A stretch of 13,105 nt of DNA from an uncultured delta proteobacterium (GTDB lineage: Bacteria; RBG-13-61-14; DRUE01), in NCBI GenBank assembly GCA_903930515.1, contig CAIYYW010000056.1, positions 1-13,105 on the forward strand, given 5' to 3'. Below, piece by piece: positions 1 through 13,105 of the stretch (the stretch's first letter is position 1; each line of letters opens with the position of its first letter). Under the pieces are notes generated by a model, which had not been told where the DNA came from, did no database searches, and saw only the letters and a program-made list of their open reading frames with translations. The translations under genes were made by a program, and so were the position numbers.

Positions 1-1086
1 GGACAAAAGCGGGTTCCCACCCAGGTTGTCAATGAAACGGCGTTCGGTAATATCCATGCCGGGTACAATACTACTTGCACCATCATCGGCGCCTTCGGCT
101 TTTGCTCGGGCCAAAATGAAGGGGCTCTGGGGAACGGGAATGGGGTCAATCAGAAGACGATTGTCGAGGCCAACGATAGCTTCAGCTGGAGCCAGGTCGC
201 CACCGGAAGCCTGTTCAGTTGTTTTATGAGCACCGGTTCCAATCTCTATTGCAGCGGGAAAAATGGTTCCGGCCAGTTGGGCAATGGCAATCAAACCGAC
301 CAGCTCACGCCCGTTCCGGTCAGCGGCGATACCACTTACTACCTATTCGATCTTGGCTACTGGCACGCTTGCGGCATCCGTAACAACCTAAGCTCGATCT
401 GGTGCTGGGGAGACAACCAATTCGGCCAGCTCGGAGACGGGACCACCATCAGCCGCAATGTCCCCACCCGGGTTGGCTCGGTCACTTTATGCGGCGCGAT
501 CACCACCGGCGCATTTCATACCTGCGCCGACACATTTGCGACGGTCACTTGTTGGGGCCGCAATAATTACGGCCAACTGGGGAACGGGAACAATACCGAC
601 CAGAAATCGCCCGTTATCGTGGGAGCGGCCGGCAACTGGGACACCGTGGTCGCCGGTTACAGCCATACCTGCGCCAGGCGATATGATGACTCCCTCTGGT
701 GCTGGGGATACAATAGTTACGGCCAACTCGGGAATGGATCCTACGCCAACAGCAATGTCCCGGTTCAGGTCGGAACCGACACCGATTGGGGCGACATGGC
801 CTTGGGTCAAAACTTCTCGTGCGCCAAGAAAACCTCCGGCGCCATCTATTGCTGGGGGAACAATCAATTGGGCCAATTGGCGCAGCCGGCGAGTGTGTCT
901 TATACAAACACACCGCAGCTGGTCGGGACCGCCACCGATTGGCTCCTGATTACCGCGGGTGGATACCATGTCTGCGCCAGCAAGGCCAACTCCCTCTCCT
1001 GCTGGGGTGATAATAGCTATGGCCAGATTCCGGATTCGTCGGCATGGTATGAGTGGTTTCAGACGATCGTTTCCAAGTCCCCATAG
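1..1086 (+). CDS. RCC1-repeat beta-propeller protein, 3' part (5' end outside window)
   Basis: The reading frame is open from the first base, so the methionine at 226 is internal and this is the C-terminal 361 residues of a larger protein. About seven RCC1-type repeats are visible, each with an H-x-C or F-x-C element, then a C-W-G or C-S-G element, then a G-Q-L-G-N/D-G turn. Six to seven such blades make a closed propeller, so most of one is in view, and the segment before the first blade looks like the tail of an earlier repeat. Each blade carries two cysteines, which suits disulfide bonding outside the cytoplasm, so I infer a secreted or surface protein. The signal peptide would be upstream of the window. 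The ligand is unknown. It is related in design to the complete protein at 5356-6879 but is clearly diverged from it. The stop is TAG at 1084-1086. Confidence 0.88.
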   Translation, partial: GQKRVPTQVVNETAFGNIHAGYNTTCTIIGAFGFCSGQNEGALGNGNGVNQKTIVEANDSFSWSQVATGSLFSCFMSTGSNLYCSGKNGSGQLGNGNQTDQLTPVPVSGDTTYYLFDLGYWHACGIRNNLSSIWCWGDNQFGQLGDGTTISRNVPTRVGSVTLCGAITTGAFHTCADTFATVTCWGRNNYGQLGNGNNTDQKSPVIVGAAGNWDTVVAGYSHTCARRYDDSLWCWGYNSYGQLGNGSYANSNVPVQVGTDTDWGDMALGQNFSCAKKTSGAIYCWGNNQLGQLAQPASVSYTNTPQLVGTATDWLLITAGGYHVCASKANSLSCWGDNSYGQIPDSSAWYEWFQTIVSKSP

Positions 1087-1488
1087 GCCGATTAAAGCCA
1101 TCGCAATCTCGTCCGGCACATTTCGATCATTGCGGAATCCCGAGGGGGCCGGCCTTAATTTTTAACTATATTCACATAATAATATTAGATGACGATTAAA
1201 ATGCAGTTAAGGAATGTCTTGGAGGCGTGTTTCGGATTTCGGGTTAAAAGCCAATAGGAATATTTTAATTCTCTGCGGGACAGCCGTGTCCTCTCTGCGC
1301 CTCTGAGGGCCGCCCGTACGCGGTGAAAGCTTGATTTGTTCGCAGGTCCCGCTTGAAGGCGCCAGGGGTGTATTAAGGGCTATCGCAGACCCTGTTTCGT
1401 TCTTACGGGCTACGCAGGGCAAGCAGGAGTGGTCCCGGTCAGAAGAAAAGAGCGCTTAAGCCCTGGAATGGTTGCGTCGCGGGAAAAT

Positions 1489-1516
1489 TTGCCAAAAAAT
1501 TCTGAGCGGGTATGAT
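1489..1516 (+). promoter_or_regulatory. Putative sigma-70 promoter of the mglA-PocR unit
   Basis: TTGCCA (1489-1494) and TATGAT (1511-1516) each match 5 of 6 consensus bases and are separated by 16 nt. Transcription would begin near 1523, leaving a leader of about 65 nt before the GTPase start codon. This is the best promoter match in the upstream gap. It was identified by eye only. Confidence 0.55.
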
Positions 1517-1575
1517 AGTTTGTTGGCAAGGGAGGCTTTTTTGCAAAAGGGGAAGAATTTGATTTAATAGATATA

Positions 1576-1582
1576 GGGAGAG
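1576..1582 (+). promoter_or_regulatory. Ribosome binding site fixing a TTG start
   Basis: GGGAGAG lies 6 nt before the TTG at 1589 but 15 nt before the next in-frame ATG at 1598. The spacing favours TTG as the true start of the MglA-like GTPase. Confidence 0.6.
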
Positions 1583-1588
1583 AATCAA

Positions 1589-2305
1589 TTGGTTCAGATG
1601 AATTTAGAATTTCGGGAGGTGACGGTCAAGGTTGTTTACTACGGACCGGCACTTTCCGGCAAGACCACCAATCTCCAGGTATTGCACCGGATGTTTGACT
1701 CGCATCATCGGGGGAGACTGATGAGCCTGGAGACCCAGTCGGACCGGACCCTGTTTTTCGATCTTCTCCCGATCCAGTATCAGACCCCGACCGGATTGAA
1801 GGTGAAGCTGAAGCTGTTCACGGTTCCCGGACAGGTGCTCCATAACGAGACCCGCAAGGCGGTCTTGAGCGGGGCGGACGCGGTGGTGTTCGTGGCGGAC
1901 AGCCAGCGGAGTCAGGCGTTGAGCAATTCAATGAGCTTCAAGAACCTTAAGGAAAATCTGCGGGTGAACAGCCTGGACTTTGAAACCATCCCGATCGCGA
2001 TCCAGTTCAACAAGCGGGACCTGGCCGAGATCAAGCCGGTGGAGGAGATCAAGGCGGACTGGGGCGAAACCCGCTTTGCCACCTTCCTCGCCATCGCCGG
2101 TCAGGGCCAGGGGGTTTTTGAGACCTTTGAATGCGTGGTCCGGATGGGGTTTGACGCCATCAATCGCAAATACGATTTCAATAAAAAATTCGGGTTCAAC
2201 CTGGATACTTTTGTTCAAAGCATCAAGGGCGAGAAGCTCGGCGAGCAGGTTGACCTGAAAAAATATCTGGTCACGCCGGGCAGCGCCTCCGGGGTGTTGA
2301 AATGA
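1589..2305 (+). CDS. mglA: MglA-like small Ras-family GTPase
   Basis: This is a 238-residue single-domain GTPase of the bacterial MglA type. The P-loop is G19-PALS-GKTTN (residues 19-28). The switch area contains TLFFDLLP (54-61), the G3 element is TVPGQ (78-82), and the NKRD guanine-specificity motif is at 141-144. TLFFD and TVPGQ are hallmarks of the MglA family, which sets cell polarity and controls motility machinery in Myxococcus and relatives. MglA is usually about 195 residues, so the extra 40 or so residues form a C-terminal tail (about 195-238) of unknown role. The start is TTG with a GGGAGAG site 6 nt upstream. No roadblock-type MglB partner (the usual GAP) is adjacent; the next gene, a PocR-domain sensor, overlaps by 4 nt (ATGA), so the two are translationally coupled. 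Family assignment is firm; the cellular role (polarity or motility) is inferred. Confidence 0.88.
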   Translation: MVQMNLEFREVTVKVVYYGPALSGKTTNLQVLHRMFDSHHRGRLMSLETQSDRTLFFDLLPIQYQTPTGLKVKLKLFTVPGQVLHNETRKAVLSGADAVVFVADSQRSQALSNSMSFKNLKENLRVNSLDFETIPIAIQFNKRDLAEIKPVEEIKADWGETRFATFLAIAGQGQGVFETFECVVRMGFDAINRKYDFNKKFGFNLDTFVQSIKGEKLGEQVDLKKYLVTPGSASGVLK

Positions 2306-2964
2306 GCGAGTCGGTCCTGGAAAAGAAGTTTGAGATCAGCGAGCTGTTGGATATGCGGATTTTGGGCGAGGTGCTCAAGAGCCTGTCCGACCTGATCGCT
2401 TTGCAAATCCGGATTTTTGATCCGAGCGGCCATGAATTATTCAACACCGGGGGCGAGGATCATTTCTGCGAGGTGATCCATCAGGCGGACCGGGACGACT
2501 TGATTTGCCGGTCGGTGCGGGAGAAGCTGCTCAGCCAGCCCCTGGTCGGAAGCAACGCGGTCCAGATCCTCTCGGTCTGCGGAGCGCGCTACACGGTCCT
2601 GCCCATTATGCATCAGTTTGAACCACTGGGACGGGTCGTGCTCGGTCCTTACCAGGACCACGGCGTGGCCTCCTCCCGGCTGGAAGCGATTGCCGCGCAA
2701 TACCGCCTGGATTTCGCCAAATTTATCACTGACTACAAAAATCTTCTGGAAATCTCTCCCGATCAGATCAAGAAAATGGCCCGGTTCATCTCCAAGTTCC
2801 TGGACGCCTTTGTCTTTATCAATACCAAGCGACTCCTGACCAGCCTGATGCATCTGGAGTTGATGATGCAGTCCAAGGACCAGATCTTCCAGCAGGTGGA
2901 AAGGGAAATGAAACGCACGCCCGAGGACCTGCAGGAAATTGAGCGTTACAAAAAAATGTTTTGA
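2302..2964 (+). CDS. PocR-domain sensory protein, partner of the MglA-like GTPase
   Basis: This 220-residue soluble protein begins with a short helical lead (residues 8-35). It continues with a PocR-like ligand-sensing domain (about 15-175): an IRIFDPSG strand-turn, cysteines at 56, 69 and 93, a CGARYTVLPI element (93-102), and an LGRVVLGPYQ strand (109-118). PocR domains are PAS/GAF-like sensors of small molecules, first described in a propanediol regulator. The remaining residues (about 175-220) form a charged helix. No DNA-binding, kinase or diguanylate cyclase output domain is attached, which is unusual for a PocR protein. The gene starts inside the stop of the GTPase gene (ATGA), so the output may be the GTPase itself; this is inference. 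It could also be a stand-alone sensor for another partner. Domain identity rests on remembered family pattern. Confidence 0.65.
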   Translation: MSESVLEKKFEISELLDMRILGEVLKSLSDLIALQIRIFDPSGHELFNTGGEDHFCEVIHQADRDDLICRSVREKLLSQPLVGSNAVQILSVCGARYTVLPIMHQFEPLGRVVLGPYQDHGVASSRLEAIAAQYRLDFAKFITDYKNLLEISPDQIKKMARFISKFLDAFVFINTKRLLTSLMHLELMMQSKDQIFQQVEREMKRTPEDLQEIERYKKMF

Positions 2965-3064
2965 GCCGGGCGCGGACCCGGGGCGCGGACACTCTTGCTT
3001 TGCTTGCCCGCGGTAGCCCCGCCTTAAAGCGGGAGCGGAGCAGGATCGGCGCGCATATCATAAG
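2965..3064. repeat. Short gap with a 10-bp direct repeat and a small hairpin
   Basis: GGGCGCGGAC occurs at 2968-2977 and again at 2981-2990. CCCGC (3018-3022) and GCGGG (3029-3033) can pair around a 6-nt loop. There is no U-run after the hairpin, so it is not a standard terminator, and transcription from the mglA unit could continue into mqnE. Confidence 0.3.
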
Positions 3065-4129
3065 ATGAAAAAGCGGATTGAAAGCAAAATCAAAGCCGGA
3101 GAGAGGATCAATGAGCAGGAGGCGGAATTACTGTTTCAGGAACCGGACCTGATCCGGCTTGGCAAACTCGCCAATTCAGTCAAGGAGCGATTGACCGGCA
3201 ACCAAATTTTCTTCAACCTCAACCGCCACATCAACCCGACCAATTACTGCAAGAACCGATGCCGCTTCTGCGCCTTCAGCGCCGGCTTCGGCGATCAACA
3301 CGGCTACCAGCTCAGCCTCAACGAGATGGAAGAGATCGCGGCAAAGGCCGGAAACATTTATGAGTTCCATATCGTGGGCGGGCTTCATCCGGAATGGGAT
3401 TTTGAATACTACTTGGAAATACTGCGCCGTTTAAAAAAGCTTCGGCCCGAGGTTTTAATCCAGGCATATACCGCGGTGGAGATTGATCATTTTTCCAAAA
3501 TCAGCGGCCTCTCCCTGGATGCCGTGATTGCTCAACTAAAGCAAGCCGGCCTGGACGCGGTGCCTGGAGGGGGCGCGGAAATTTTTCGACCGAGCGTTCG
3601 CAAAAAAATATGTCCGGAAAAAATATCCGGGAAGCGCTGGCGGCAAATCCACGCGGCGCTTCACCGGGCCGGGGTCCAGAGCAATGCCACCATGCTTTAC
3701 GGCCATTTGGAAAATTATTCGGACCGGGTCGCGCATCTGAAGGAACTGCGCGAACTCCAGGATCGATCCCCGGGCTTTCAGGCTTTTATCCCGCTCGCGT
3801 TCCATCCCCGGAACACCCGGATCAAGAATGTCCGCAACACCACCGGCGTGGACGACCTCAAGACCATCGCGGTGAGCAGGATCTATCTGGACAACTTCCC
3901 GCATGTCAAGGCCTTCTGGATTATGCTCGGAGAAAAGCTGGCGCAGGTTTCGCTCTGGTTCGGAGCCGATGATCTGGACGGCACGGTTGCGGAGGAAAAG
4001 ATCACCCATATGGCCGGGGCGCAGACTCCGGAGGCCCTGGCCAGGGAAGAGTTGGTGCGCCTGATCCGGGAAGCCGGCCGGGAGCCGAATGAGCGCGATA
4101 CCTGGTACCGGGTGAAACAGAAATGGTGA
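3065..4129 (+). CDS. mqnE: Aminodeoxyfutalosine synthase (radical SAM), menaquinone synthesis
   Basis: MqnE uses a SAM-derived deoxyadenosyl radical to couple with 3-[(1-carboxyvinyl)oxy]benzoate, giving 6-amino-6-deoxyfutalosine. This is the first radical step of the futalosine route to menaquinone, in the cytoplasm. The 354-residue length fits the family. The radical-SAM cluster motif CKNRCRFC places cysteines at 62, 66 and 69, preceded by NRHINPTN. Further family features are HIVGGLHPEWDFEYY, QAYTAVEI, and the GLDAVPGGGAEIF segment shared with MqnC and the CofG/CofH group. The HIVGG and YTAVEI wording fits MqnE rather than the F420 enzymes, and the adjacent mqnC settles it. No strong ribosome binding site precedes the ATG at 3065. 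The 3' end overlaps mqnC by 7 nt, so the two are co-transcribed. mqnA, mqnB and mqnD are not in the window. Confidence 0.9.
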   Translation: MKKRIESKIKAGERINEQEAELLFQEPDLIRLGKLANSVKERLTGNQIFFNLNRHINPTNYCKNRCRFCAFSAGFGDQHGYQLSLNEMEEIAAKAGNIYEFHIVGGLHPEWDFEYYLEILRRLKKLRPEVLIQAYTAVEIDHFSKISGLSLDAVIAQLKQAGLDAVPGGGAEIFRPSVRKKICPEKISGKRWRQIHAALHRAGVQSNATMLYGHLENYSDRVAHLKELRELQDRSPGFQAFIPLAFHPRNTRIKNVRNTTGVDDLKTIAVSRIYLDNFPHVKAFWIMLGEKLAQVSLWFGADDLDGTVAEEKITHMAGAQTPEALAREELVRLIREAGREPNERDTWYRVKQKW

Positions 4130-5187
4130 ATTCCGTGGGCCGGAAACCGTTTGCCGTTAGCCGTATTTTAAAGAAGGAAGCGCTCCATCTGTTCCGGAAC
4201 GCGAGCCTTCTGGAACTGGGCGGGAAAGCCGACGCGCTCCGCCGCGGGTTGCATCCGGGAAAAATTGTCAGCTTCGTGATTGACCGCAATATCAACTACA
4301 CCAACATCTGCGTATCCGGCTGTAAGTTCTGCGCCTTCTCCCGACCGCCGAAACATCCCGAGGGATTTGTTCTTGGCTTGGAACAGATTTTCCGGAAAAT
4401 TGAGGAACTCCTCTCCCAGTCCGGAACCCAAATCTTGCTCCAGGGAGGAATGAATCCGGATTTAGGAATTGAATGGTTTGAAAATATCTTTTGCGCCATC
4501 AAGCAAAAATACCCGATCCATATTCACGGACTGAGTCCGCCAGAAATCGACTTCCTTGCCAAAAAAGAAGGCCTGAGTGTCAAAGAGACCTTGATCCGCC
4601 TGAAAAAAGCAGGGCTTGACTCCATCCCCGGAGGCGGCGCGGAAATTCTCTCCGACCGAGTCCGGAACAATCTCAGCCCGAAAAAGGTTGACGCAAAAGG
4701 CTGGCTCAAGGTAATGCAAGAGGCTCATCAACTCGGCATTGCCACCAGCGCCACCATGATGTTCGGTTCCGTTGAAAAAGACGAGGAGATCATTGAACAC
4801 CTGCTCAAAATCAGAAGGCTCCAGGACAAAACCAAAGGCTTCATCTCCTTTATCCCATGGTCCTTCCAGCCCAAGAATACAGGCTTGCCTGACATTTCCC
4901 CTGCCAGCGGCGTCCGTTATCTCCGCGTGCTCGCCCTCTCCCGCCTGGTCCTGGACAATGTCCCGAATATTCAGTGCAGTTGGGTCACCCAGGGAGACAA
5001 GATCGCCCAGGTGTCCCTGTTCTTCGGCGCCAATGACTTCGGATCAACTATGTTGGAAGAAAATGTGGTCCGCTCCGCCGGCGCTTCCTTCCGCCTGTCC
5101 AAAGATGAAATCGTCCGCCTGATCAAGGATGCCGGCTTCACGCCCGCGCAAAGGGACCAAAGCTATCGGATCCTCAAGACCTGCTGA
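4123..5187 (+). CDS. mqnC: Cyclic dehypoxanthinyl futalosine synthase (radical SAM)
   Basis: MqnC closes dehypoxanthine futalosine into its cyclic form, the second radical-SAM step of the futalosine menaquinone pathway. The 354-residue protein has the cluster motif CVSGCKFC with cysteines at 63, 67 and 70, preceded by RNINYTNIC. It continues with ILLQGGMNPDLG, HIHGLSPPEI and LDSIPGGGAEIL, then FISFIPWSFQPKNTGL, all characteristic of MqnC. Near the C-terminus, QVSLFFGANDFGSTMLEENV matches the family ending. The gene starts within the last codons of mqnE (ATG at 4123, mqnE stop at 4127-4129), a coupled pair of paralogous enzymes. A short GC-rich segment followed by seven T residues just downstream could end the transcript. 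An organism using this pathway probably respires with menaquinone. Confidence 0.92.
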   Translation: MVNSVGRKPFAVSRILKKEALHLFRNASLLELGGKADALRRGLHPGKIVSFVIDRNINYTNICVSGCKFCAFSRPPKHPEGFVLGLEQIFRKIEELLSQSGTQILLQGGMNPDLGIEWFENIFCAIKQKYPIHIHGLSPPEIDFLAKKEGLSVKETLIRLKKAGLDSIPGGGAEILSDRVRNNLSPKKVDAKGWLKVMQEAHQLGIATSATMMFGSVEKDEEIIEHLLKIRRLQDKTKGFISFIPWSFQPKNTGLPDISPASGVRYLRVLALSRLVLDNVPNIQCSWVTQGDKIAQVSLFFGANDFGSTMLEENVVRSAGASFRLSKDEIVRLIKDAGFTPAQRDQSYRILKTC

Positions 5188-5190
5188 GAC

Positions 5191-5215
5191 TCGTCCCGCG
5201 GGCGCCAATTTTTTT
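5191..5215 (+). terminator. Weak candidate terminator after mqnC
   Basis: A GC-rich stretch containing the palindromes CCCGCGGG (5195-5202) and GGCGCC (5201-5206) is followed by a run of seven T (5209-5215). The T-run is typical of intrinsic terminators, but the palindromes lack a proper loop, so the hairpin is not convincing. Confidence 0.3.
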
Positions 5216-5248
5216 CCATCAACCCGCACCCATTCATTCCAAAAAAAC

Positions 5249-5279
5249 TTGACATGCATTGAGCCGCGTGTAATATAAT
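5249..5279 (+). promoter_or_regulatory. Putative strong sigma-70 promoter of the RCC1-repeat lipoprotein gene
   Basis: TTGACA (5249-5254) and TATAAT (5274-5279) are both perfect consensus hexamers, with a 19-nt spacer that is longer than the usual 17. An overlapping TAATAT at 5271-5276 would give a 16-nt spacer. Transcription from here would start near 5286, which rules out translation from the in-frame TTG at 5281. Confidence 0.6.
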
Positions 5280-5341
5280 ATTGCGACTTCAGAGGGCTCT
5301 ATGTCTCCCTGACTTGCCGCGCGTATTTAAAATCTCTCACA

Positions 5342-5348
5342 AAAGGAG
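5342..5348 (+). promoter_or_regulatory. Ribosome binding site fixing the ATG at 5356
   Basis: AAAGGAG ends 7 nt before the ATG at 5356. Together with the promoter at 5249-5279 and the signal sequence that follows the ATG, it shows that the upstream in-frame extension to 5281 is not translated. Confidence 0.75.
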
Positions 5349-5355
5349 CAAAACG

Positions 5356-6879
5356 ATGAAGATGCAAGAATCGGGGTTGAAACTTGAAACATTATTTTTC
5401 CTTTTGAGCTTTGCCTTGTTAGGGCCGGCCTGCGGCCAGAGCCCGAATGGAGCGCTTTCCAGCCGACCGGGATCCGGTCCTGAGTTAGAGACCGCCATCA
5501 GCGCGGCCGGCGCGCTCCAGACCACCATCACCGCCCGGCCGGTGGGACCGAACATCACCGGTGATGCGATGTTCAAGTTCAAATGCAACAAGGGCAAATG
5601 CGCATACAAATGCTCGCTGGACTCGGCGCCCTTTACAACTTGCAAAACCCCCAAGATCTATTCCGGTCTCCTGCCCGACGCCCACACCTTCCAGGTCAAA
5701 GCCAAGGACCCGGCCACCCAGAAGTGGGATAAAACCCCGGCCAGCTATGGCTGGACTATTGACGACGGCGAGACCACCTTTATCGCCAACTCCAAAAAGA
5801 TCGCCGCGGGCGGAGCTCATACCTGCATTTTGAATTATCTGGGCGGGGTGAAATGCTGGGGTTGGAACACCTACGGTCAACTCGGCAACGGCAAGAACGA
5901 CTCCACTAATGTCCCGGTCAATGTCAGCGGGCTATCCTCCGGCGTGAGCGCCATCGCCGCGGGCGATTCCTTCAACTGCGCCTTGACCGCGCTCGGCGGC
6001 GTCAAATGCTGGGGATACAACGACGACGGCGAACTCGGAGACGGCACGACCTTGCGAGACAAGAATGCGCCGGTAAATGTTTCCGGGCTTGGCGCCGGAG
6101 TAAGCGCCATCACCGCGGGCAGGTATCATGCCTGCGCGCTTACCACCGGCGGCGGCGTGAAGTGCTGGGGATGGAATGCCTACGGCCAGATCGGCGACGG
6201 CAATACCGCGGACGAATTCCTCAATGTCCCGACCCAGGTCCAGGGCCTGACCTCCGGCGTGGTCGCGGTCTCCGCCGGCGAGGCTCATACCTGCGCGTTG
6301 TTGGCCACCGGCGCGGTCCAGTGCTGGGGATATAATGGCGATGGCGAACTCGGAAACGGCCTGGATGAGAACACCAGCGCGCCGATCAGCGTTACCGGCC
6401 TTTCCTCAAACCAGGTCGCCATCTCCGCCGGATGGTATCATTCCTGTTCTTTGAATTCCTCCAGCGGAATCAAATGCTGGGGTCTCAATTTCAGCTCCCA
6501 GCTCGGCGACGGCTCCACCGCCCATGAACAGTATACCCCGGTCCAGGTTTCCGGGCTGACTTCCGGCATGAGCGCGGTTGCCTCCGGCTCCGAGCATACC
6601 TGCAGCCTGACCAATGCCGGTGGAGCAAAATGCTGGGGATATAACGGTGACGGCGGCCTGGGAAACAACGATGCCACCCACACCAACAGCAATGTCCCGG
6701 TGGATGTCTCCGGACTGCCTTCCAAAGTCTGCGCCATTTCCTCCGGGATGTGGTTCACCTGCGCCCTGAATTGCGACGGCACCGCCAAATGCTGGGGGAC
6801 TGGCGGGCAAGGTCAGCTCGGCCGGGGAAACAACAGTAGCAGCGATGTCCCGGTCAGCGTGAGCGGTTTTGTCTATTGA
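5356..6879 (+). CDS. Secreted RCC1-repeat seven-bladed beta-propeller protein with Ig-like domain
   Basis: The protein has 507 residues from the ATG at 5356. Residues 1-25 are an export signal with a hydrophobic stretch LFFLLSFALLGPA ending at C26. This could be a lipoprotein signal, but the GPAC box is atypical (Gly rather than Leu at -3), so plain secretion is possible. Residues 56-136 form a small domain with four cysteines (77, 82, 86, 96) and the pattern CSLDSAPFTTC...Y..L..HTFQVKAKD...SYGWTID, typical of Ig-like modules in bacterial surface proteins. Residues 148-505 are seven RCC1 repeats of about 50 residues, enough for a whole propeller. Each has GxxHxC, then KCWG, then GxLGxG. Eukaryotic RCC1 is a nuclear exchange factor, but bacterial secreted versions have no settled function. 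It stands alone, with its own promoter, between mqnC and the cas operon. Confidence 0.88.
   Translation: MKMQESGLKLETLFFLLSFALLGPACGQSPNGALSSRPGSGPELETAISAAGALQTTITARPVGPNITGDAMFKFKCNKGKCAYKCSLDSAPFTTCKTPKIYSGLLPDAHTFQVKAKDPATQKWDKTPASYGWTIDDGETTFIANSKKIAAGGAHTCILNYLGGVKCWGWNTYGQLGNGKNDSTNVPVNVSGLSSGVSAIAAGDSFNCALTALGGVKCWGYNDDGELGDGTTLRDKNAPVNVSGLGAGVSAITAGRYHACALTTGGGVKCWGWNAYGQIGDGNTADEFLNVPTQVQGLTSGVVAVSAGEAHTCALLATGAVQCWGYNGDGELGNGLDENTSAPISVTGLSSNQVAISAGWYHSCSLNSSSGIKCWGLNFSSQLGDGSTAHEQYTPVQVSGLTSGMSAVASGSEHTCSLTNAGGAKCWGYNGDGGLGNNDATHTNSNVPVDVSGLPSKVCAISSGMWFTCALNCDGTAKCWGTGGQGQLGRGNNSSSDVPVSVSGFVY
5797..6870 (+). repeat. Seven tandem RCC1 repeats within the secreted protein
   Basis: Seven protein-level repeats of about 150 nt each lie in one frame. 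Each encodes a G-x-x-H/F-x-C start, a central C-W-G and a G-x-L/I-G-x-G/N turn, followed by a VPV-V-SGL linker in most copies. The paired cysteine positions are kept in all seven, and the DNA has diverged between copies, so the array is old rather than freshly duplicated. Confidence 0.85.
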
Positions 6880-7023
6880 GTCCGAGCCAGACTTGTAAGC
6901 GACCGGACGGAGAGACCGACCGGGCATAGCCGGCGGCCTGAGCGGGGCCTTATTGGAAATGCCTTTTCAGCTCCGAGGCATAAAAATACGGGTTGGGCAA
7001 GGGCATAAACCTTAAGCCAAAAA

Positions 7024-7030
7024 GAGGGGT
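7024..7030 (+). promoter_or_regulatory. Ribosome binding site for the cas operon, TTG start
   Basis: GAGGGGT lies 5 nt before the TTG at 7036. The protein read from there opens with NLLEENWIPV, the expected Cse1 N-terminus, so the TTG start is supported. The 156-nt gap upstream (6880-7035) shows no convincing promoter hexamer pair; the best fragment is CATAAA at 6979-6984. Confidence 0.6.
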
Positions 7031-7035
7031 GTAAC

Positions 7036-8439
7036 TTGGAAACGGATCGCTATAACCTGCTGGAAGAGAATTGGATTCCCGTCCTTTATAACAATGGCAC
7101 CGTGGACCGCGTGGGAATCAAGAAGGCGCTCTCGGAAGCCGGCAAAATCCGCCAGATAGCGGCTAGCAATCCCATGGACCGCGTGGCCATCATCCGATTC
7201 CTGCTGGCGGTGCTCCAGTGGTGCAAAGGCAATCCACCAGCCGATGCAAACACCATTTCCGGCGACTCCTTCCCCGCGGATTGGTTCAAAAAGCTAGACG
7301 AAAACAAAGACTGCTTCAATATGTTAGGAAACGGCAAAAGATTTTATCAGCAAAAAACTTCAAAGAAGGAATGGGCAATAACCAGCCTGCTGCAGGAAAT
7401 CCCCTCCGGCAATAACTTCTGGCACCTGAGGCATTCAACCGACAGAAAAGATGGTCTTTGCTTTGCCTGCTGTGCGATGGGTTTACTGAGACTGCCGATT
7501 TTTAGCGTTACCAGCTTGCCCGACCTTAAAACCGGGATCAATGGCACGCCGCCTATTTATGTTATTCCGTGGGGCAGATCGCTGCTTAATACCCTTCAAG
7601 CAAACTGGGCGCCATGTGGGCAACTTGGAGTTCCCGCATGGGTTCAGGCGGACATTCGCCCAACCATGGATGAGAATGTGCCACCTCTCACGGGGTTGAC
7701 CATATTGTCAAGACGGGTCTGGTTACATGATCCAATTGAGCAATCAGGCGTTTGCATTAGCTGTGGCGTGAGGGAAACTTCCCTGATATTGAGCTGCGAG
7801 TATCAAAGCTCCGGCGAACTCAGAAATGATCATTGGAATGATCCTCATGTTATCTATTCAAATGATACACCCCGAAAGGCAAGCAGAGCCTCAGACCTTT
7901 CTGCGGCAAAAAAATTCAGGATGGACCGGCCTTGGCCATACTTGCTCAGCAACATGCTGGAGGCCGGCAAAATGGGTACTGGCATCAGTCCAATATCTCT
8001 GTTTGTTGTCGGCTTTGCCACCGACAAGGCAAAGAACATTGATGTTTGGGAGCGAAATATTGCAGTGCCATCATCGGGGATATCTCTGGATACTGCTAAA
8101 TCCATGATTCTGCAATGGCAGCAGGAAGGCAACCTATTGGATAAACGAATCCCAAGACCTGATACCGGGACGACCGCTATTATTGGTTCCATTCGCCCGG
8201 AAGTGGAAGGCAAAGTATCCGCGAAAGCAGGCGAGTTGCTTACCGGGGGTGATGGCGCATGGGAAGAGGCGGCCCGAGAATATCGTCCGATGATGGAAGC
8301 GATCTCAAAGTCGCTTTCTCCGGGATTCACCAGCGAATCTGTCCAAAGACGCAATCATATCGCTAATCTACTTCCCGATATGCGCAGAAAAACAGAACCG
8401 GCCAAGAAACCAAGCCGGAAAAAAGGAGGGGAAAAGTGA
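7036..8439 (+). CDS. cas8e: Type I-E Cascade large subunit Cse1/Cas8e
   Basis: Cse1 is the large subunit of type I-E Cascade. It recognises the PAM, starts target DNA unwinding and, in ordinary I-E systems, recruits Cas3. The 467-residue protein opens with the family signature NLLEENWIPV (residues 7-16) and has a MLGNGKRFYQ loop region (96-105). Two CxxC pairs (142/145 and 240/243) fit the zinc site known in some Cse1 proteins. WPYLLSNML near 300 and SPISLFVVGFATD (318-330) continue the family pattern, and the helical C-terminal domain follows (about 350-445). It is somewhat shorter than E. coli Cse1 (about 500) and ends in a very basic tail (KKPSRKKGGEK). It begins the operon: the gene upstream is an unrelated RCC1 protein, not cas3. 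The 3' end overlaps cse2 by 4 nt (GTGA). Confidence 0.88.
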   Translation: METDRYNLLEENWIPVLYNNGTVDRVGIKKALSEAGKIRQIAASNPMDRVAIIRFLLAVLQWCKGNPPADANTISGDSFPADWFKKLDENKDCFNMLGNGKRFYQQKTSKKEWAITSLLQEIPSGNNFWHLRHSTDRKDGLCFACCAMGLLRLPIFSVTSLPDLKTGINGTPPIYVIPWGRSLLNTLQANWAPCGQLGVPAWVQADIRPTMDENVPPLTGLTILSRRVWLHDPIEQSGVCISCGVRETSLILSCEYQSSGELRNDHWNDPHVIYSNDTPRKASRASDLSAAKKFRMDRPWPYLLSNMLEAGKMGTGISPISLFVVGFATDKAKNIDVWERNIAVPSSGISLDTAKSMILQWQQEGNLLDKRIPRPDTGTTAIIGSIRPEVEGKVSAKAGELLTGGDGAWEEAAREYRPMMEAISKSLSPGFTSESVQRRNHIANLLPDMRRKTEPAKKPSRKKGGEK

Positions 8440-8927
8440 CTGCAAAAGAGCCATTCATAGAAGTTCTGACCCATCTGAAAAAGGGCGACCTTGGTCTGTT
8501 GCGCATTCATGCCGGACAAGGGCTTGATGAGTCGGTGGATGGGTTTGACCTGTTCGCGGGTTTGTGGTGGCCGTTGCGTCAGAAAAACCAGCGGGCGCCG
8601 CGGCGTGAAGTTGCTTGGATGATTGCAAAGCTATTTGCTTATTGTCCAATAAAACAAGCAGAGCGAACAGAAGGCGAGGGGTTAGCCGGGCAATTGCGCA
8701 AATGTCAGCCAAACGAGGAAAAGGAGAGAAAAAGATTCGCGCAGAAGTTTGATAAAATGCTTCTTCTCCCGCTTGACAAAATAGAACCGGCATTGCGATG
8801 GGCGCTTGATCGGATCGCCTCAAAAAATTTGAAACTCGACTGGGTGAAACTGACCGATGATCTTTCTATCTGGGAGCGCGAAACCACCCGCCTTAGGTGG
8901 GCGGAACAATTTCTAAAAAACGAATAA
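8436..8927 (+). CDS. cse2: Type I-E Cascade small subunit Cse2/Cas11
   Basis: Cse2 is the small alpha-helical subunit, present as a dimer along the belly of Cascade, where it stabilises the displaced DNA strand. The 163-residue length matches the family (E. coli about 160). GLWWPLRQKNQRAPRREVAW (residues 42-61) resembles the conserved N-terminal region, and the protein is rich in Lys and Arg, as expected for nucleic acid contact. The C-terminal half contains helices with DLSIWERETTRLRWAEQFL. The start is GTG at 8436, overlapping the cse1 stop by 4 nt, with a strong AAGGAGGGG site just upstream (8423-8431). Its stop at 8925-8927 lies 11 nt before cas7. The small-subunit call leans partly on position between cse1 and cas7. 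Confidence 0.85.
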   Translation: MTAKEPFIEVLTHLKKGDLGLLRIHAGQGLDESVDGFDLFAGLWWPLRQKNQRAPRREVAWMIAKLFAYCPIKQAERTEGEGLAGQLRKCQPNEEKERKRFAQKFDKMLLLPLDKIEPALRWALDRIASKNLKLDWVKLTDDLSIWERETTRLRWAEQFLKNE

Positions 8928-8933
8928 AGGAGG
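8926..8933 (+). promoter_or_regulatory. Strong ribosome binding site for cas7
   Basis: AAAGGAGG lies 5 nt before the ATG at 8939. This start yields the canonical N-terminus MLIEIHAIQN, so an upstream in-frame ATG at 8897 inside cse2 is not used. Confidence 0.8.
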
Positions 8934-8938
8934 GAGTC

Positions 8939-10054
8939 ATGTTAATCGAGATTCATGCCATTCAAAACCACAGCCCGGCCAATCTGAACCGGGACGACCT
9001 GGGTGCGCCCAAGACCTGCTATTTCGGAGGGGTGCTGCGCTCGCGCATTTCCAGCCAGTGCATCAAGAGAAGCATCCGCATGAGCGACGAGTTCAAAAAA
9101 TTGCTGGGTGGAGTTCGCACAAGGCAATTGGCAAAATTGATCGCCGAGAAGGTAACGGGCAAGGCCGAGGTTAAAAAGCGCGCCGCGAAAATTCTTAAAG
9201 AATGCGGCATCAGCCCCAAGGATGATGACCGGAGCGATATGCTGGTTTATACCACCCATGAGGCAATCCAGAAAATGGCCGCGCTCCTTCAGCAAGCCGA
9301 TGGTAAAACCGATGAGCAACTCGCGGCTGAGTTTGGACTATTGATCAGCCAAGAGGTCGCGGTTCCGGACATGGCCCTGAGCGGTAGAATGCTCGAAACC
9401 GGCAAGATCATGGACACCACCGTGGATGCGGCTTTGCAGGTCGCTCATGCCATCTCCACCCACGAGGCCCGTCCGGAGGTTGATTACTATGTCGCCGCCG
9501 ATGACATTCCCGGTGATGATGCGGGAGCCGGCTATGTGGACGAGGCCATGTTCGCCTCGGCCTGCTTTTACAAGTATTTTTCCATCCATTGGGAAACCCT
9601 GGTCGAGAATCTGAAGGGTAATAAAGAACTTGCCGCCCACACGGTCGGGGCATTCCTTCGTGGCTTGGCCTTGGTTAATCCCACCGGCAAGCAGAACAGC
9701 TTCGCCGCCCACAATCCGCCCGATGGAATCCTGGTGGAAATCAAGGACACTCCGATCAGCTATGCTAATGCCTTTGCCGACCCGGTACCGAGCAAGGGCG
9801 ACCGCGACCTGATCTCGCAGAGTATCGCGCAATTGGGTCAATACATTCACGATCTTGATACGGGATATGGCAAGCCGCAAAAACGCTTTTGGTTCTCGCC
9901 CAATCTCCGCTATCAATTGAAGGTGGCGGAAGATAAAAAAGAGATCGCTCTTGCCGAGAACAACCTAAAGTCGTTGGATGATTTGATCCCCTCCGTGCTC
10001 AAATCCATTGGTTATGACTGGACGGCGGTACAGAAGGTTGTTGTGAACCCATGA
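8939..10054 (+). CDS. cas7: Type I-E Cascade backbone subunit Cas7 (Cse4/CasC)
   Basis: Cas7 forms the six-copy helical backbone that holds the crRNA spacer. The protein has 371 residues from the ATG at 8939 (E. coli about 363). It starts with MLIEIHAIQNHSPANLNRDD (residues 1-20) and continues GAPKTCYFGGVLRSRISSQC (22-41), the most conserved stretch of I-E Cas7. ALSGRMLETG and the VDEAMFASACFYKYFSIHWE region follow, then FLRGLALVNPTGKQNSFAAH, all typical of the fold. No nuclease residues are expected, and none stand out. It sits 11 nt after cse2 with its own strong ribosome binding site, which suits the higher copy number needed. The 3' end overlaps cas5 by 4 nt (ATGA). Confidence 0.93.
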   Translation: MLIEIHAIQNHSPANLNRDDLGAPKTCYFGGVLRSRISSQCIKRSIRMSDEFKKLLGGVRTRQLAKLIAEKVTGKAEVKKRAAKILKECGISPKDDDRSDMLVYTTHEAIQKMAALLQQADGKTDEQLAAEFGLLISQEVAVPDMALSGRMLETGKIMDTTVDAALQVAHAISTHEARPEVDYYVAADDIPGDDAGAGYVDEAMFASACFYKYFSIHWETLVENLKGNKELAAHTVGAFLRGLALVNPTGKQNSFAAHNPPDGILVEIKDTPISYANAFADPVPSKGDRDLISQSIAQLGQYIHDLDTGYGKPQKRFWFSPNLRYQLKVAEDKKEIALAENNLKSLDDLIPSVLKSIGYDWTAVQKVVVNP

Positions 10055-11148
10055 GCCTAAATACCCTATTTCTCCGGCTGGAAGGCCCCCTGCAGGCATG
10101 GGGAAATCAGGAATCAAAATTTGTCATCCGCCGCACCGCCGAGGCTCCGACCAAGTCCGGAGTGATCGGGATGCTCTGCGCGGCCCTGGGCGTATCCAGG
10201 CCATATGCCGCCAACGAATGGCTTCCAAAGCTCGGAGCTCTCCATTTTGGCATTCGCATTGACAAGCCGGGGGTGCGCTGGTGGGATTATCACACGGTCG
10301 GCGCGGAGATGCAGATGCGCATTGCAGAGGGAAAGACTAAGTCCGGCGCCATGCTTACTCGCCGCGAATATCTTTGCGATGCGAGCTTCATAGCCGCAAT
10401 GCAAGGAGAGCCATCTCTGATTGCGGATTTGGAAGCAGCAATGAAAACCCCCAAATGGACTCTCTATTTGGGAAGGAAATGCTGTCCCCCTTCCCGGCCG
10501 ATCCTGGAGAATCCGGCTGGAAATTTCGCCAATTTACGGGACGCGCTCGTATCAATCGCCTGGCGCCCTAGGCTTGAGGCAGATACGCCGCCGTCATTCG
10601 TGGATTGTTTGCTCGATTGGTGGACGACTCCCGAACAGGTTGAAGCGCCTGAAGACGCCGAGGTCTGGTATGATGTGCCGCTGACTTTTGAGCCTCCGGC
10701 TCATCTCCCCCGATTCGTTATTCGGGAAAAATTGGCTGTGGGTGATGGCGGCAAGATAAAGCTTGGCGAGCCTGTTCAAAGTCGCACTCCCTCGCCCCCT
10801 CGCCCGCGAGCCGATTATAAGAATACCGAATATAAAAAGATGCGAATTGAGCGGCTTGATCGGGATCATCATCTTTGCGTATTCTGCAAATCGCGCGCGA
10901 CTACCGTTCAGCATTGCACCTATCGCCATGCCGGGGGCGATGAGCGAATTGAGGAGCTTAGATCCCTTTGCCGCCTCTGCCACGATGCCGTGACCATGAT
11001 TGAGTATGGAATGGGTATGGGAATGGACCGGATCAATCCGGAGGAGCCGAGCTGGCGAGACGAGATTATCAAGAAGCGGGACGAGATTATCAGGTTCCGT
11101 TCGCTGGAAACACGCAGGCGGCGGCTGGAACCCGAGGAGGTGGAATAG
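10051..11148 (+). CDS. cas5: Cas5e with C-terminal HNH nuclease domain (Cas5-HNH fusion)
   Basis: Cas5e caps the 5' handle of the crRNA in Cascade. Residues 1 to about 230 are a normal Cas5e: LFLRLEGPLQAWG (6-18), EAPTKSGVIGMLCAALGVSR (31-50), WDYHTVGA (78-85), TRREYLCDASF (103-113), PKWTLYLGRKCCPPSRPI (134-151) and the closing PRFVIREKLAV strand. The usual length is about 225-250; this protein has 365. A proline-rich linker (PVQSRTPSPPRPRADYK, 241-257) leads into an HNH domain (about 258-350). Its visible elements are CVFC (276, 279), VQHCTY with the likely catalytic H288, GGDE (295-298), LCRLCH (C307, C310, H311) and then DAVTMIEYG. The two CxxC pairs would bind structural zinc. The final helices are strongly charged. 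No cas3 accompanies it, so I infer the HNH is the target nuclease. The fusion is in frame with no break. Confidence 0.92.
   Translation: MSLNTLFLRLEGPLQAWGNQESKFVIRRTAEAPTKSGVIGMLCAALGVSRPYAANEWLPKLGALHFGIRIDKPGVRWWDYHTVGAEMQMRIAEGKTKSGAMLTRREYLCDASFIAAMQGEPSLIADLEAAMKTPKWTLYLGRKCCPPSRPILENPAGNFANLRDALVSIAWRPRLEADTPPSFVDCLLDWWTTPEQVEAPEDAEVWYDVPLTFEPPAHLPRFVIREKLAVGDGGKIKLGEPVQSRTPSPPRPRADYKNTEYKKMRIERLDRDHHLCVFCKSRATTVQHCTYRHAGGDERIEELRSLCRLCHDAVTMIEYGMGMGMDRINPEEPSWRDEIIKKRDEIIRFRSLETRRRRLEPEEVE
10822..11100 (+). other. HNH endonuclease domain segment of the Cas5 fusion
   Basis: This is the coding segment for residues about 258-350 of the fusion. The order CxxC, QH, GGDE, CxxCH matches zinc-ribbon HNH (beta-beta-alpha-metal) nucleases, in which the first His activates water and one metal ion sits at the active site. 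The last His of a textbook HNH (after CxxCH) is replaced by DAVT. I recall the same replacement in a common group of bacterial HNH proteins, so it need not mean inactivity. Confidence 0.85.
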
Positions 11149-11150
11149 CA

Positions 11151-11894
11151 ATGTATCTCTCCTGTCTTTTAATTGATGTTGGCGAGAATCCCGACCGTCC
11201 TAGACCGGGTCGGCTTTGGCTCCGAAATCTCTACCATGTTCATCAGCGCTTGTGTATGGCGTTCCCGTCTTCCGACCAAAAGGAAAAGGATCCATCGTTC
11301 ATAAAATCCTTTGACCCGCAAGGCTTCCAGCATGTTCATGGCGAGCGAAATGAACAGCAGGCTTTTCTCTTTCGCATTGATCCGCTCGCTGATGGACGCG
11401 AAATGATCCTCGTGCAATCCGCGCTGGAGCCGGATTGGGACTACGCCTTTCAAAATTCCCCATTCCTGGCCGCTCCCCCGGCGTGCAAGCCCTTCAATCC
11501 GAAGTTTGAGCCGAACCAGCGCCTGCAATTCCGGCTGCTCGCGAACCCGGTGAGAAAAATCAGTCAAAAATCAGTAGGTGCTGATGGCAAACCATTGGAT
11601 AAAAAATGGATAGGCAAGAGGGTGCCGGTTCCAAACGACAAGCTGGAACAATGGCTCACAAGGAAGGCCGAGCAAGGCGGTTTTCGCATAGAACGGTTGG
11701 CATCCCTCCAGCCGGGGTATATTTATATCAAAGGCCACAAAGCCGACAATGAAGGCAACCGCCTATTCTCCGCCAAGTTTGAAGGAATCCTTGAAGTTAC
11801 CAAACCCGGTGATTTCCAAAAAGCCATAATGAGCGGCATCGGTCCTGCCAAGGCCTTTGGCTTCGGGATGTTGAGTGTGGCGCAGGTAAAATGA
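11151..11894 (+). CDS. cas6e: Cas6e (Cse3/CasE) pre-crRNA endoribonuclease
   Basis: Cas6e cuts the repeat in the CRISPR transcript and stays bound to the crRNA 3' hairpin as a Cascade subunit. The 247-residue protein opens MYLSCLLID, and LYHVHQRL (residues 27-34) carries H29 and H31. H31 lines up with the catalytic His of the Y-x-L-H-x-x-L pattern of Thermus Cse3. RIDPLADGREMILVQSALEPDW fits the first ferredoxin-like fold. GKRVPVP (153-159) fits the conserved K-R segment before the second fold. The C-terminal GIGPAKAFGFGMLSVA (229-244) is the glycine-rich loop that defines Cas6 proteins. Length is slightly above E. coli (about 200). It starts 2 nt after the cas5 stop, with GAGGAGGTGG (11134-11143) as its ribosome binding site, and overlaps cas1 by 4 nt. 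Confidence 0.9.
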   Translation: MYLSCLLIDVGENPDRPRPGRLWLRNLYHVHQRLCMAFPSSDQKEKDPSFIKSFDPQGFQHVHGERNEQQAFLFRIDPLADGREMILVQSALEPDWDYAFQNSPFLAAPPACKPFNPKFEPNQRLQFRLLANPVRKISQKSVGADGKPLDKKWIGKRVPVPNDKLEQWLTRKAEQGGFRIERLASLQPGYIYIKGHKADNEGNRLFSAKFEGILEVTKPGDFQKAIMSGIGPAKAFGFGMLSVAQVK

Positions 11895-12880
11895 AGAACC
11901 TGCACATCCTTCCCAAGTTTTCCGACCGGTGGAGCTATTTGTATCTTGAGCATGGCAAGCTGGACAAAGAGGACTCCGGCCTGGTGCTTCATATCAAGGA
12001 CGGCGATATTCCGGTCCCGATTGATCAGTTGGGGCTGCTCATGCTCGGGCCGGGGACTTCCCTCAGCCACCGGGCCATGCAGGCCCTGGCCGAGAATAAC
12101 TGCCTGGTCTGCTGGACCGGAGAGCAAGGCGTAAGGATGTATGCTCACAGCACCGGCGGGACTCATTTCTCCAGGAGGCTCTTGAACCAGGCCCGAATGT
12201 TTTGCGATGACGGCTTGAGGCTGAAGGTTATCCGGCGGCTGTATGCCAAAAGGTTTGAGTATGAACTTTCCGAAGACTTGACCATTGAGCAGATCCGGGG
12301 CCTGGAGGGCCAGCGGGTGAGGAACACCTACAAGCTTATTTCCGACAGTGTTGGCATCCCCTGGAATGGCAGGTGTTATGACCAGGACGATTGGGATAAT
12401 GCGGATCCGGTGAATCGGGCGCTGTCCGCGGCTAATTCCTGTCTCTATGGAATCTGCCATGCGGCCATCCTGTCCGCGGGTTATTCCCCGGCCATCGGCT
12501 TTATCCATACCGGAAAAATGCTCAGCTTCGTCTATGACATCGCCGACCTCTATAAGACGGAAATCACCATCCCGCTCGCGTTTACCGTGGCCTCGGAGGG
12601 GAGCGTGGAAACCGAACGGAAGGCAAGGCTTAAGTGCCGGGATGTTTTCCACCAAAGCAAGTTGATGGAACGCATCCTGCCCGATATTGCGGAGGTGCTG
12701 GATGCTCGTGATGATCTTGGAGAATGCCCCGGAGAGTTTGAAGGGAGAATTGTCACGCTGGCTGATCGAGCCGAAGTCGGGCGTGTTCCTTGGGAACCCC
12801 AACGCCAGGGTGAGGGACGAACTCTGGAAAATGGCGGTAAAAAAAAGCCGGAAGGGGACGGTGGTCCAGATCTGGAGTGA
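11891..12880 (+). CDS. cas1: Cas1e integrase of the type I-E adaptation module
   Basis: Cas1 inserts new spacers into the CRISPR array as a complex with Cas2. Metal ligands are E139 (in RGLEGQRVR), H206 (in AIGFIHTGKM) and D219 (in FVYDIADLYK). They match E. coli E141, H208 and D221 with a constant offset of 2, so the enzyme should be active. The N-terminal beta-domain (1 to about 85) and the alpha-domain are complete. The family-like sequence runs to about residue 290 (LGECPGEFEGRIVTLADR). The last about 40 residues, rich in Gly, Glu and Lys, come from reading through the 5' part of cas2 in another frame, giving a 179-nt overlap. Such a tail is plausible because Cas1e C-termini are variable and disordered. 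The ATG start overlaps the cas6e stop by 4 nt. Confidence 0.92.
   Translation: MKNLHILPKFSDRWSYLYLEHGKLDKEDSGLVLHIKDGDIPVPIDQLGLLMLGPGTSLSHRAMQALAENNCLVCWTGEQGVRMYAHSTGGTHFSRRLLNQARMFCDDGLRLKVIRRLYAKRFEYELSEDLTIEQIRGLEGQRVRNTYKLISDSVGIPWNGRCYDQDDWDNADPVNRALSAANSCLYGICHAAILSAGYSPAIGFIHTGKMLSFVYDIADLYKTEITIPLAFTVASEGSVETERKARLKCRDVFHQSKLMERILPDIAEVLDARDDLGECPGEFEGRIVTLADRAEVGRVPWEPQRQGEGRTLENGGKKKPEGDGGPDLE
12691..12697 (+). promoter_or_regulatory. Ribosome binding site for cas2 inside cas1
   Basis: GGAGGTG lies 4 nt before the ATG at 12702, within cas1 codons. It supports cas2 translation from 12702 despite the deep overlap. The window ends with the same 14 bases that lead into this site (12680-12693 equals 13092-13105), hinting that another cas2 start may follow. 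Confidence 0.65.
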
Positions 12881-13105
12881 ACATAACCCGCAGGGATATA
12901 AATACCGGGTCCATGGCGAGCCGAAAAGGCAGTTCGTGGATTTTGAGGGGATCGCGCTGTTGATCTACAAGACCGAAACTTCCGTTCCCGCCGCCTTCGA
13001 GTCCGCGCAGCGGACCGGCGACGTGGAGGCGCGCGTGCGCATCCTCTGCCGCGAAGTCTTTCACGAAAAGCGCATCATGGAACGCTGTCTTCCCGATATT
13101 GCGGA
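12702..13105 (+). CDS. cas2: Cas2e running in frame into a Cas1e C-terminal fragment (3' end outside window)
   Basis: Residues 1 to about 87 are Cas2e, the dimeric core of the spacer-integration complex. MLVMILENAP (1-10), RWLIEPKSGVFLGNPNARVR (19-38), QIWSEHNPQGYKYRVHG (56-72) and QFVDFEGIALL (77-87) follow the E. coli Cas2 pattern closely up to its VDLDGLRLV strand. Instead of stopping within about 7 residues, the frame continues with IYKTE...AAF...CREVFHEKRIMERCLPDIA (88-134). That is the C-terminal part of a Cas1e, equivalent to residues 220-267 of the neighbouring Cas1 but only about half identical to it by hand alignment. No stop occurs before the window end. Either a chimera formed by recombination between two adaptation modules, or a fused remnant, explains it. 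The start is inside cas1 with a 179-nt overlap. Confidence 0.85.
   Translation, partial: MLVMILENAPESLKGELSRWLIEPKSGVFLGNPNARVRDELWKMAVKKSRKGTVVQIWSEHNPQGYKYRVHGEPKRQFVDFEGIALLIYKTETSVPAAFESAQRTGDVEARVRILCREVFHEKRIMERCLPDIA
12963..13105 (+). pseudogene. Partial second cas1 (C-terminal fragment), fused behind cas2
   Basis: Starting at the codon for I88 of the cas2 frame, the sequence encodes a Cas1e tail without the upstream metal-binding Glu, His and Asp, so it cannot act as an integrase. Relative to 12546-12693 of the intact cas1, the DNA is well diverged, so it derives from a different cas1 lineage rather than a recent tandem copy. The fragment continues past the window edge. Confidence 0.75.

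Follow-up and report, generated by a model that had tools for sequence, protein, structure and literature searches.

A Cas5-HNH fusion in a type I-E CRISPR-Cas operon of an uncultured delta proteobacterium

Which protein would cut the target DNA in a type I-E CRISPR-Cas locus whose Cas5 subunit carries an HNH nuclease domain, when no cas3 is found within the window? The window is the whole stretch of DNA that we analysed (13,105 nucleotides); it is the entire contig C56 of a 3.65 Mb draft genome consisting of 401 contigs, which is 93.5% complete with 2.4% contamination. We are highly confident that the system encoded in it is of type I-E2 (Cas5-HNH). The fusion is real and clearly identified, the class is already known, and no new property is demonstrated: as the Cas5-HNH class has been published and structurally solved since 2023-2024, the window adds one more member to it.

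The operon and its Cas5-HNH protein

A closely packed type I-E operon occupies positions 7036-13105 of the + strand in the order cas8e-cas11-cas7e-cas5HNH-cas6e-cas1e-cas2e. The type I-E effector set (cas8e, cas11, cas7e, cas5e, and cas6e) is complete within this one operon. The features are as follows.

7036..8439, + strand: cas8e (cse1/casA), large subunit, 467 aa, TTG start; Pfam CRISPR_Cse1 6.5e-41, PADLOC Cas8e 4e-40
8436..8927, + strand: cas11 (cse2/casB), 163 aa, 4-nt overlap with cas8e; Pfam CRISPR_Cse2 2.8e-14, NCBIfam casB_cse2 2.2e-12
8939..10054, + strand: cas7e (cse4/casC), backbone subunit, 371 aa; Pfam Cas_CT1975 2.3e-95, NCBIfam casC_Cse4 2.3e-77
10051..11148, + strand: cas5-HNH, 365 aa, Cas5e core plus HNH nuclease; ORF, profile, PDB, alignment and model matches
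10051..10725, + strand: Cas5e core, residues 1-225; casD_Cas5e 1.2e-41 at residues 5-172, Foldseek matches to canonical Cas5e chains
10741..10824, + strand: linker, residues ~231-258, proline-rich near its end; by sequence inspection, variable except for some P/R positions
10825..11100, + strand: HNH domain, residues 259-350; Pfam HNH, invariant residues, predicted beta-beta-alpha
11151..11894, + strand: cas6e (cse3/casE), crRNA processing, 247 aa; Pfam CRISPR_assoc 2.8e-42, casE_Cse3 1.2e-24
11891..12880, + strand: cas1e, spacer acquisition, 329 aa; cas1_ECOLI 5.4e-111
12702..13105, + strand: cas2e, truncated by the contig end; PADLOC Cas2e 8.2e-32, tail Cas1e 3.5e-11

The genes upstream of the operon are unrelated to it and encode RCC1-repeat proteins, MqnE, MqnC, a small GTPase-like protein, and a PocR-domain protein. 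The two RCC1-repeat (beta-propeller) genes, located at 226-1086 and 5281-6879 and containing internal repeats of ~150 nt, bracket the mqnE-mqnC menaquinone pair and two signalling-type genes.

An initial sequence-only reading of the window had proposed that an HNH nuclease is fused to the Cas5e subunit of a type I-E Cascade, and this proposal held. A single ORF (10051-11148, + strand) with zero internal stops encodes 365 aa, which is unusually long for Cas5e, as had been remarked: six extracted canonical Cas5e controls measured 213-260 aa. The Cas5e part of the proposal agreed with profile matches at residues 5-215 (Pfam Cas5, 1.1e-39) and 5-172 (Cas5e/CasD, 1.2e-41). For the HNH part, residues 280-314 scored 20.7 bits against Pfam HNH (cut-off 21.4) when the full protein was searched, and 23.4 bits, above the cut-off, when the domain was scanned alone. 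A phmmer search against PDB sequences ranked 8yb6_A, a Cas5-HNH chain, and the variants of this chain first (E 1.7e-130, nearly full length), which excludes chance as the basis of the Cas5-HNH identity; canonical Cas5e chains came next (E ~1e-24 to 1e-19). Identity to the Cloacimonetes Cas5-HNH chain (8yb6) was ~54-55%, and 55% in a MAFFT comparison into which the published chain was entered minus 17 internal residues. By analogy with this HNH-Cascade subunit, the nuclease would be part of the interference complex itself, as the sequence-only reading had supposed.

Within the HNH domain, C276, C279, C307, and C310 would form a zinc ribbon, and H288 would serve as the general base. Together with H311, these residues, all of them singled out beforehand, proved to be invariant in 53 of 53 aligned Cas5-HNH proteins. 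In the deposited chain 9jxs, the residue equivalent to H311 is A, where 8yb6 has H. An AlphaFold2 model based on 40 homologues had a mean pLDDT of 82.6, with values of mostly 83-96 and one lower block in the HNH region and lower confidence at residues 241-260; it contained a beta-beta-alpha arrangement at 285-288, 303-306, and 308-321. When this predicted model was submitted to Foldseek, matches 1-7 were HNH-Cascade structures determined by cryo-EM.

Related loci, cas3 and the source of the HNH domain

The representative genomes of GTDB were scanned for relatives by an alignment-based method, which yielded 52 loci (L016-L067): 51 with Cas5-HNH (L016-L066), L053 and L063 coming from one genome, and one canonical type I-E locus (L067). 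An additional Cas5-HNH locus (L015, 76% identity) was found in a viral collection. Among the matches listed for a plasmid collection there was canonical Cas5e only, and none of these matches covered 80% of the query. The Cas5-HNH relatives were all single ORFs without internal stops, that of L032 being truncated by the contig end and that of L033 at its very start. The loci span at least 13 phyla, judging by organism titles, and share the same operon order as far as their contigs extend.

Many relatives were 65-76% identical to the window protein. On a tree of Cas5 cores, its nearest neighbours were L015, L017, and L016, within a group whose members were mostly 65-76% identical to it. A larger group including the characterised Cloacimonetes protein lacked strong support (86), and 22 rows formed another large clade that was strongly supported (98). 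The Cas5-HNH rows clustered together, separately from five of the six canonical Cas5e proteins, with a value at the group base (83) that does not amount to strong support; the exception in this quick tree was E. coli CasD, misplaced on a very long branch. As the window is placed inside this broad group, it is not a separate deep branch, and the earlier suggestion of a new branch is weak in view of the many close relatives. The comparisons argue for common descent of the window protein and the characterised Cas5-HNH proteins.

The L015 sequence (1-8259) carries cas8-cas11-cas7-cas5HNH-cas6, cut at the end; beside these, the opposite strand has portal and scaffolding-like genes and one for a head maturation protease. 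This is either an I-E2 system borne by a virus or a prophage that adjoins the locus. Three genomes of the host phylum were compared, and the other two lack this Cas5-HNH, consistent with a patchy, horizontally moved system.

Outside the Cas5-HNH proteins, the closest kin of the HNH domain were free-standing HNH endonucleases of phage or homing type: PHROG 589 (1.7e-9), PDB 5h0m (6e-5), and Burkholderia phage KS9 gp49 (7e-7). Neither these nor PHROG 144 are fused to a Cas protein, and the similarity is confined to the HNH region of ~60-80 residues. IscB was considered as a source and rejected: its local similarity was weak (in NCBIfam 8e-7 and 28 bits, where the cut-off is 175; in PDB E 0.1-0.5) and no nearer than that of the free-standing phage HNH proteins. 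The pattern is consistent with the view, put forward in published work (PMC12669027), that a mobile HNH was recruited.

Nine Cas3 queries, run against the Cas5-HNH loci up to ~10 kb on either side, detected an intact cas3 in none of the 52, and the same nine queries gave a strong cas3 match at the canonical I-E control locus (L067). Immediately upstream of cas8, L024 (6496-6708) and L035 (6587-6805) possess short Cas3 N-terminal stubs, which are traces of cas3 loss; they agree with the cas3 remnants remarked on in published work (PMC10910872). The window's own genome, a 93% complete draft, had no Cas3-core (TIGR01587) match above the cut-off (best 34.9 bits against 102.45). A sub-threshold Cas3 match on contig C273 of this genome was dismissed, as it lies inside a 1183-aa ORF that looks like Mfd on inspection.

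These results bear on whether the window encodes an ordinary type I-E system in which destruction is left to a Cas3 encoded elsewhere and the fused HNH domain is accessory, a reading that we consider very unlikely. The draft state of the source genome (401 contigs, 93% complete) leaves a small chance of a distant cas3, and 15 of the 49 genomes with related loci contain a Cas3 above the cut-off somewhere, presumably from other CRISPR systems. The low best score in the window's own genome, the lack of an intact cas3 beside any related locus, and the ability of the studied homologue to cut without Cas3 (PMC10910872) nevertheless speak against it, as does the fully conserved HNH active site.

There is also little to recommend the idea that the HNH domain is dead, acts on single-stranded DNA, or is a nickase only, with the complex mainly binding and silencing its target. 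HNH domains are usually single-strand cutters, which counts in its favour. The studied Cas5-HNH likewise exhibits ssDNA and collateral cleavage (PMC10910872), but the six active-site and zinc residues do not vary among the 53 proteins, and a 54%-identical homologue cleaves dsDNA (PMC10910872). That there are two separate genes, or that a chimeric assembly wrongly joined Cas5 to an unrelated HNH ORF, could be entertained on account of the fragmented draft and a suspicious in-frame join at the end of the same contig (12972-13105), but it is refuted, with a negligible residual probability, by the cryo-EM structures of the fusion protein and by the same single-ORF fusion in 52 independent loci, which rules out a frameshift or assembly artefact.

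For the type I-E2 reading, which we prefer and which none of the observations contradict, published systems provide a working model. Cas5-HNH systems were described by Altae-Tran 2023 (PMC10910872), confirming the link that the sequence-only reading had drawn, and the variant was named I-E2 by Makarova 2025 (PMC12669027). Cutting of dsDNA by a Cas5-HNH homologue was precise, HNH-dependent, and achieved without Cas3; this crRNA-guided, PAM-dependent cleavage was PAM-distal (PMC10910872). In the window, Cas8e, Cas11, Cas7e, Cas5-HNH, and Cas6e would assemble with a crRNA carrying a 32-nt spacer into a Cascade, the HNH on Cas5 would cut the target dsDNA PAM-distally as in the studied homologue, and Cas1e and Cas2e would carry out spacer acquisition. 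The window system should thus operate like the Cloacimonetes homologue, from which assembly, cleavage, and cut position are extrapolated. Precise cutting instead of Cas3 shredding, anticipated by the sequence-only reading, is the outcome that this analogy would predict. Its view that the nuclease lies close to the PAM-proximal part of the target, on the other hand, is contradicted by the PAM-distal cutting of the published homologue (PMC10910872). It also conflicts with the solved structures, in which the HNH domain lies in the inner belly, flanked by Cas6 and Cas11, and is moved by full R-loop formation (PMC11822464).

The CRISPR array and the adaptation genes

The window itself stops short of any array. 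In its genome, a different contig, C273 (L014:1-335), opens with one, in which ATTTTCCCCACGCGCGTGGGGGTGAACCG occurs six times with a period of 61 bp; the repeats are 29 nt and the five spacers 32 nt long. Of the 52 Cas5-HNH loci, 40 have an array with repeats of the C273 type, which mostly lies directly 3' of cas2; the repeats of these loci, detected at a length of 28-29 nt, mostly resemble TCCCCACRYRYGTGGGGGTGAACCG. The C273 array therefore very probably belongs to the window's system, with the assembly broken between C56 and C273, a link that we infer from repeat identity. When the leading 22 nt of each of the five spacers on C273 were searched for exact matches in a viral collection, no protospacer emerged, and therefore no PAM could be inferred.

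Past residue ~89 (12972-13105), the cas2 frame continues up to the contig end into a segment resembling the C-terminus of Cas1e (PADLOC Cas1e 3.5e-11; 75% identical to L037 cas1 at the nucleotide level). The G+C content of this tail is 63%, compared to 54% for the cas2 core. No Cas1-like tail was found in the 43 other Cas2 proteins of Cas5-HNH loci, and the genome contains one cas1 only, with no second copy as a source. The tail most likely stems from an assembly join where the contig ends. It is improbable, though still worth stating, that the tail is real and that a Cas2e with a Cas1e C-terminal segment forms an altered adaptation complex beside an HNH-Cascade without Cas3; if true, this would be adaptation without Cas3 and hence without Cas3-driven primed adaptation.

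The cas1e and cas2e genes of the window overlap out of frame by 179 nt (12702-12880). Out-of-frame overlaps of 68-203 nt occur in about a quarter of I-E2 loci (the window, L054, L051, L021, L037, L055, L058, L019, L025, L027, L028, and L022). Most of the other I-E2 loci have an overlap of 1-47 nt or a short gap.

The window is a well-conserved addition to a small, useful class of self-cutting Cascades. In our survey this class occurs in at least 13 phyla; its loci keep cas1-cas2 and long arrays and have no intact cas3 adjoining them. Primed adaptation of ordinary type I-E systems is Cas3-dependent. The survey makes testable the question of how I-E2 systems acquire spacers once Cas3 is gone, and it offers ~50 natural variants for the comparison of cut position and specificity.

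Comparison with known systems

The order cas8e-cas11-cas7e-cas5e-cas6e-cas1-cas2 is common to the window and the canonical type I-E system of E. coli K-12. Unlike in the window, Cas5e of the latter is 224 aa long without an HNH domain, and an 888-aa Cas3 does the cutting. An assignment to canonical type I-E was rejected on the grounds that the Cas5e of the window carries an HNH domain and that no Cas3 above the cut-off was detected in its genome.

The type I-F4 Cas8-HNH systems (Selenomonas HNH-Cascade, PDB 8w1p and others) likewise have an HNH domain in a Cascade subunit replacing Cas3, but there the complex is of type I-F and the domain resides in its Cas8. An assignment to type I-F4 was also rejected: the window's Cas8 is of the Cse1 type and has no match to HNH, and the HNH domain is in Cas5e. 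Cas8-HNH and Cas5-HNH are regarded as having independent origins (PMC10910872, PMC12669027).

The closest characterised system is the type I-E2 system of Candidatus Cloacimonetes (PDB 8yb6, 8yha, 8zlu, 8zp7, 9jxs). The window differs from it in lacking an insertion of ~20 residues after Cas5 residue ~95. Downstream cas1-cas2 genes are also present in the closely related locus L048, where they overlap by 1 nt as opposed to the 179 nt of the window. In neither system was a cas3 found, and the two have in common the five-gene Cascade, the HNH domain at the Cas5 C-terminus, the zinc and active-site residues, the 32-nt spacers, and the repeat type.
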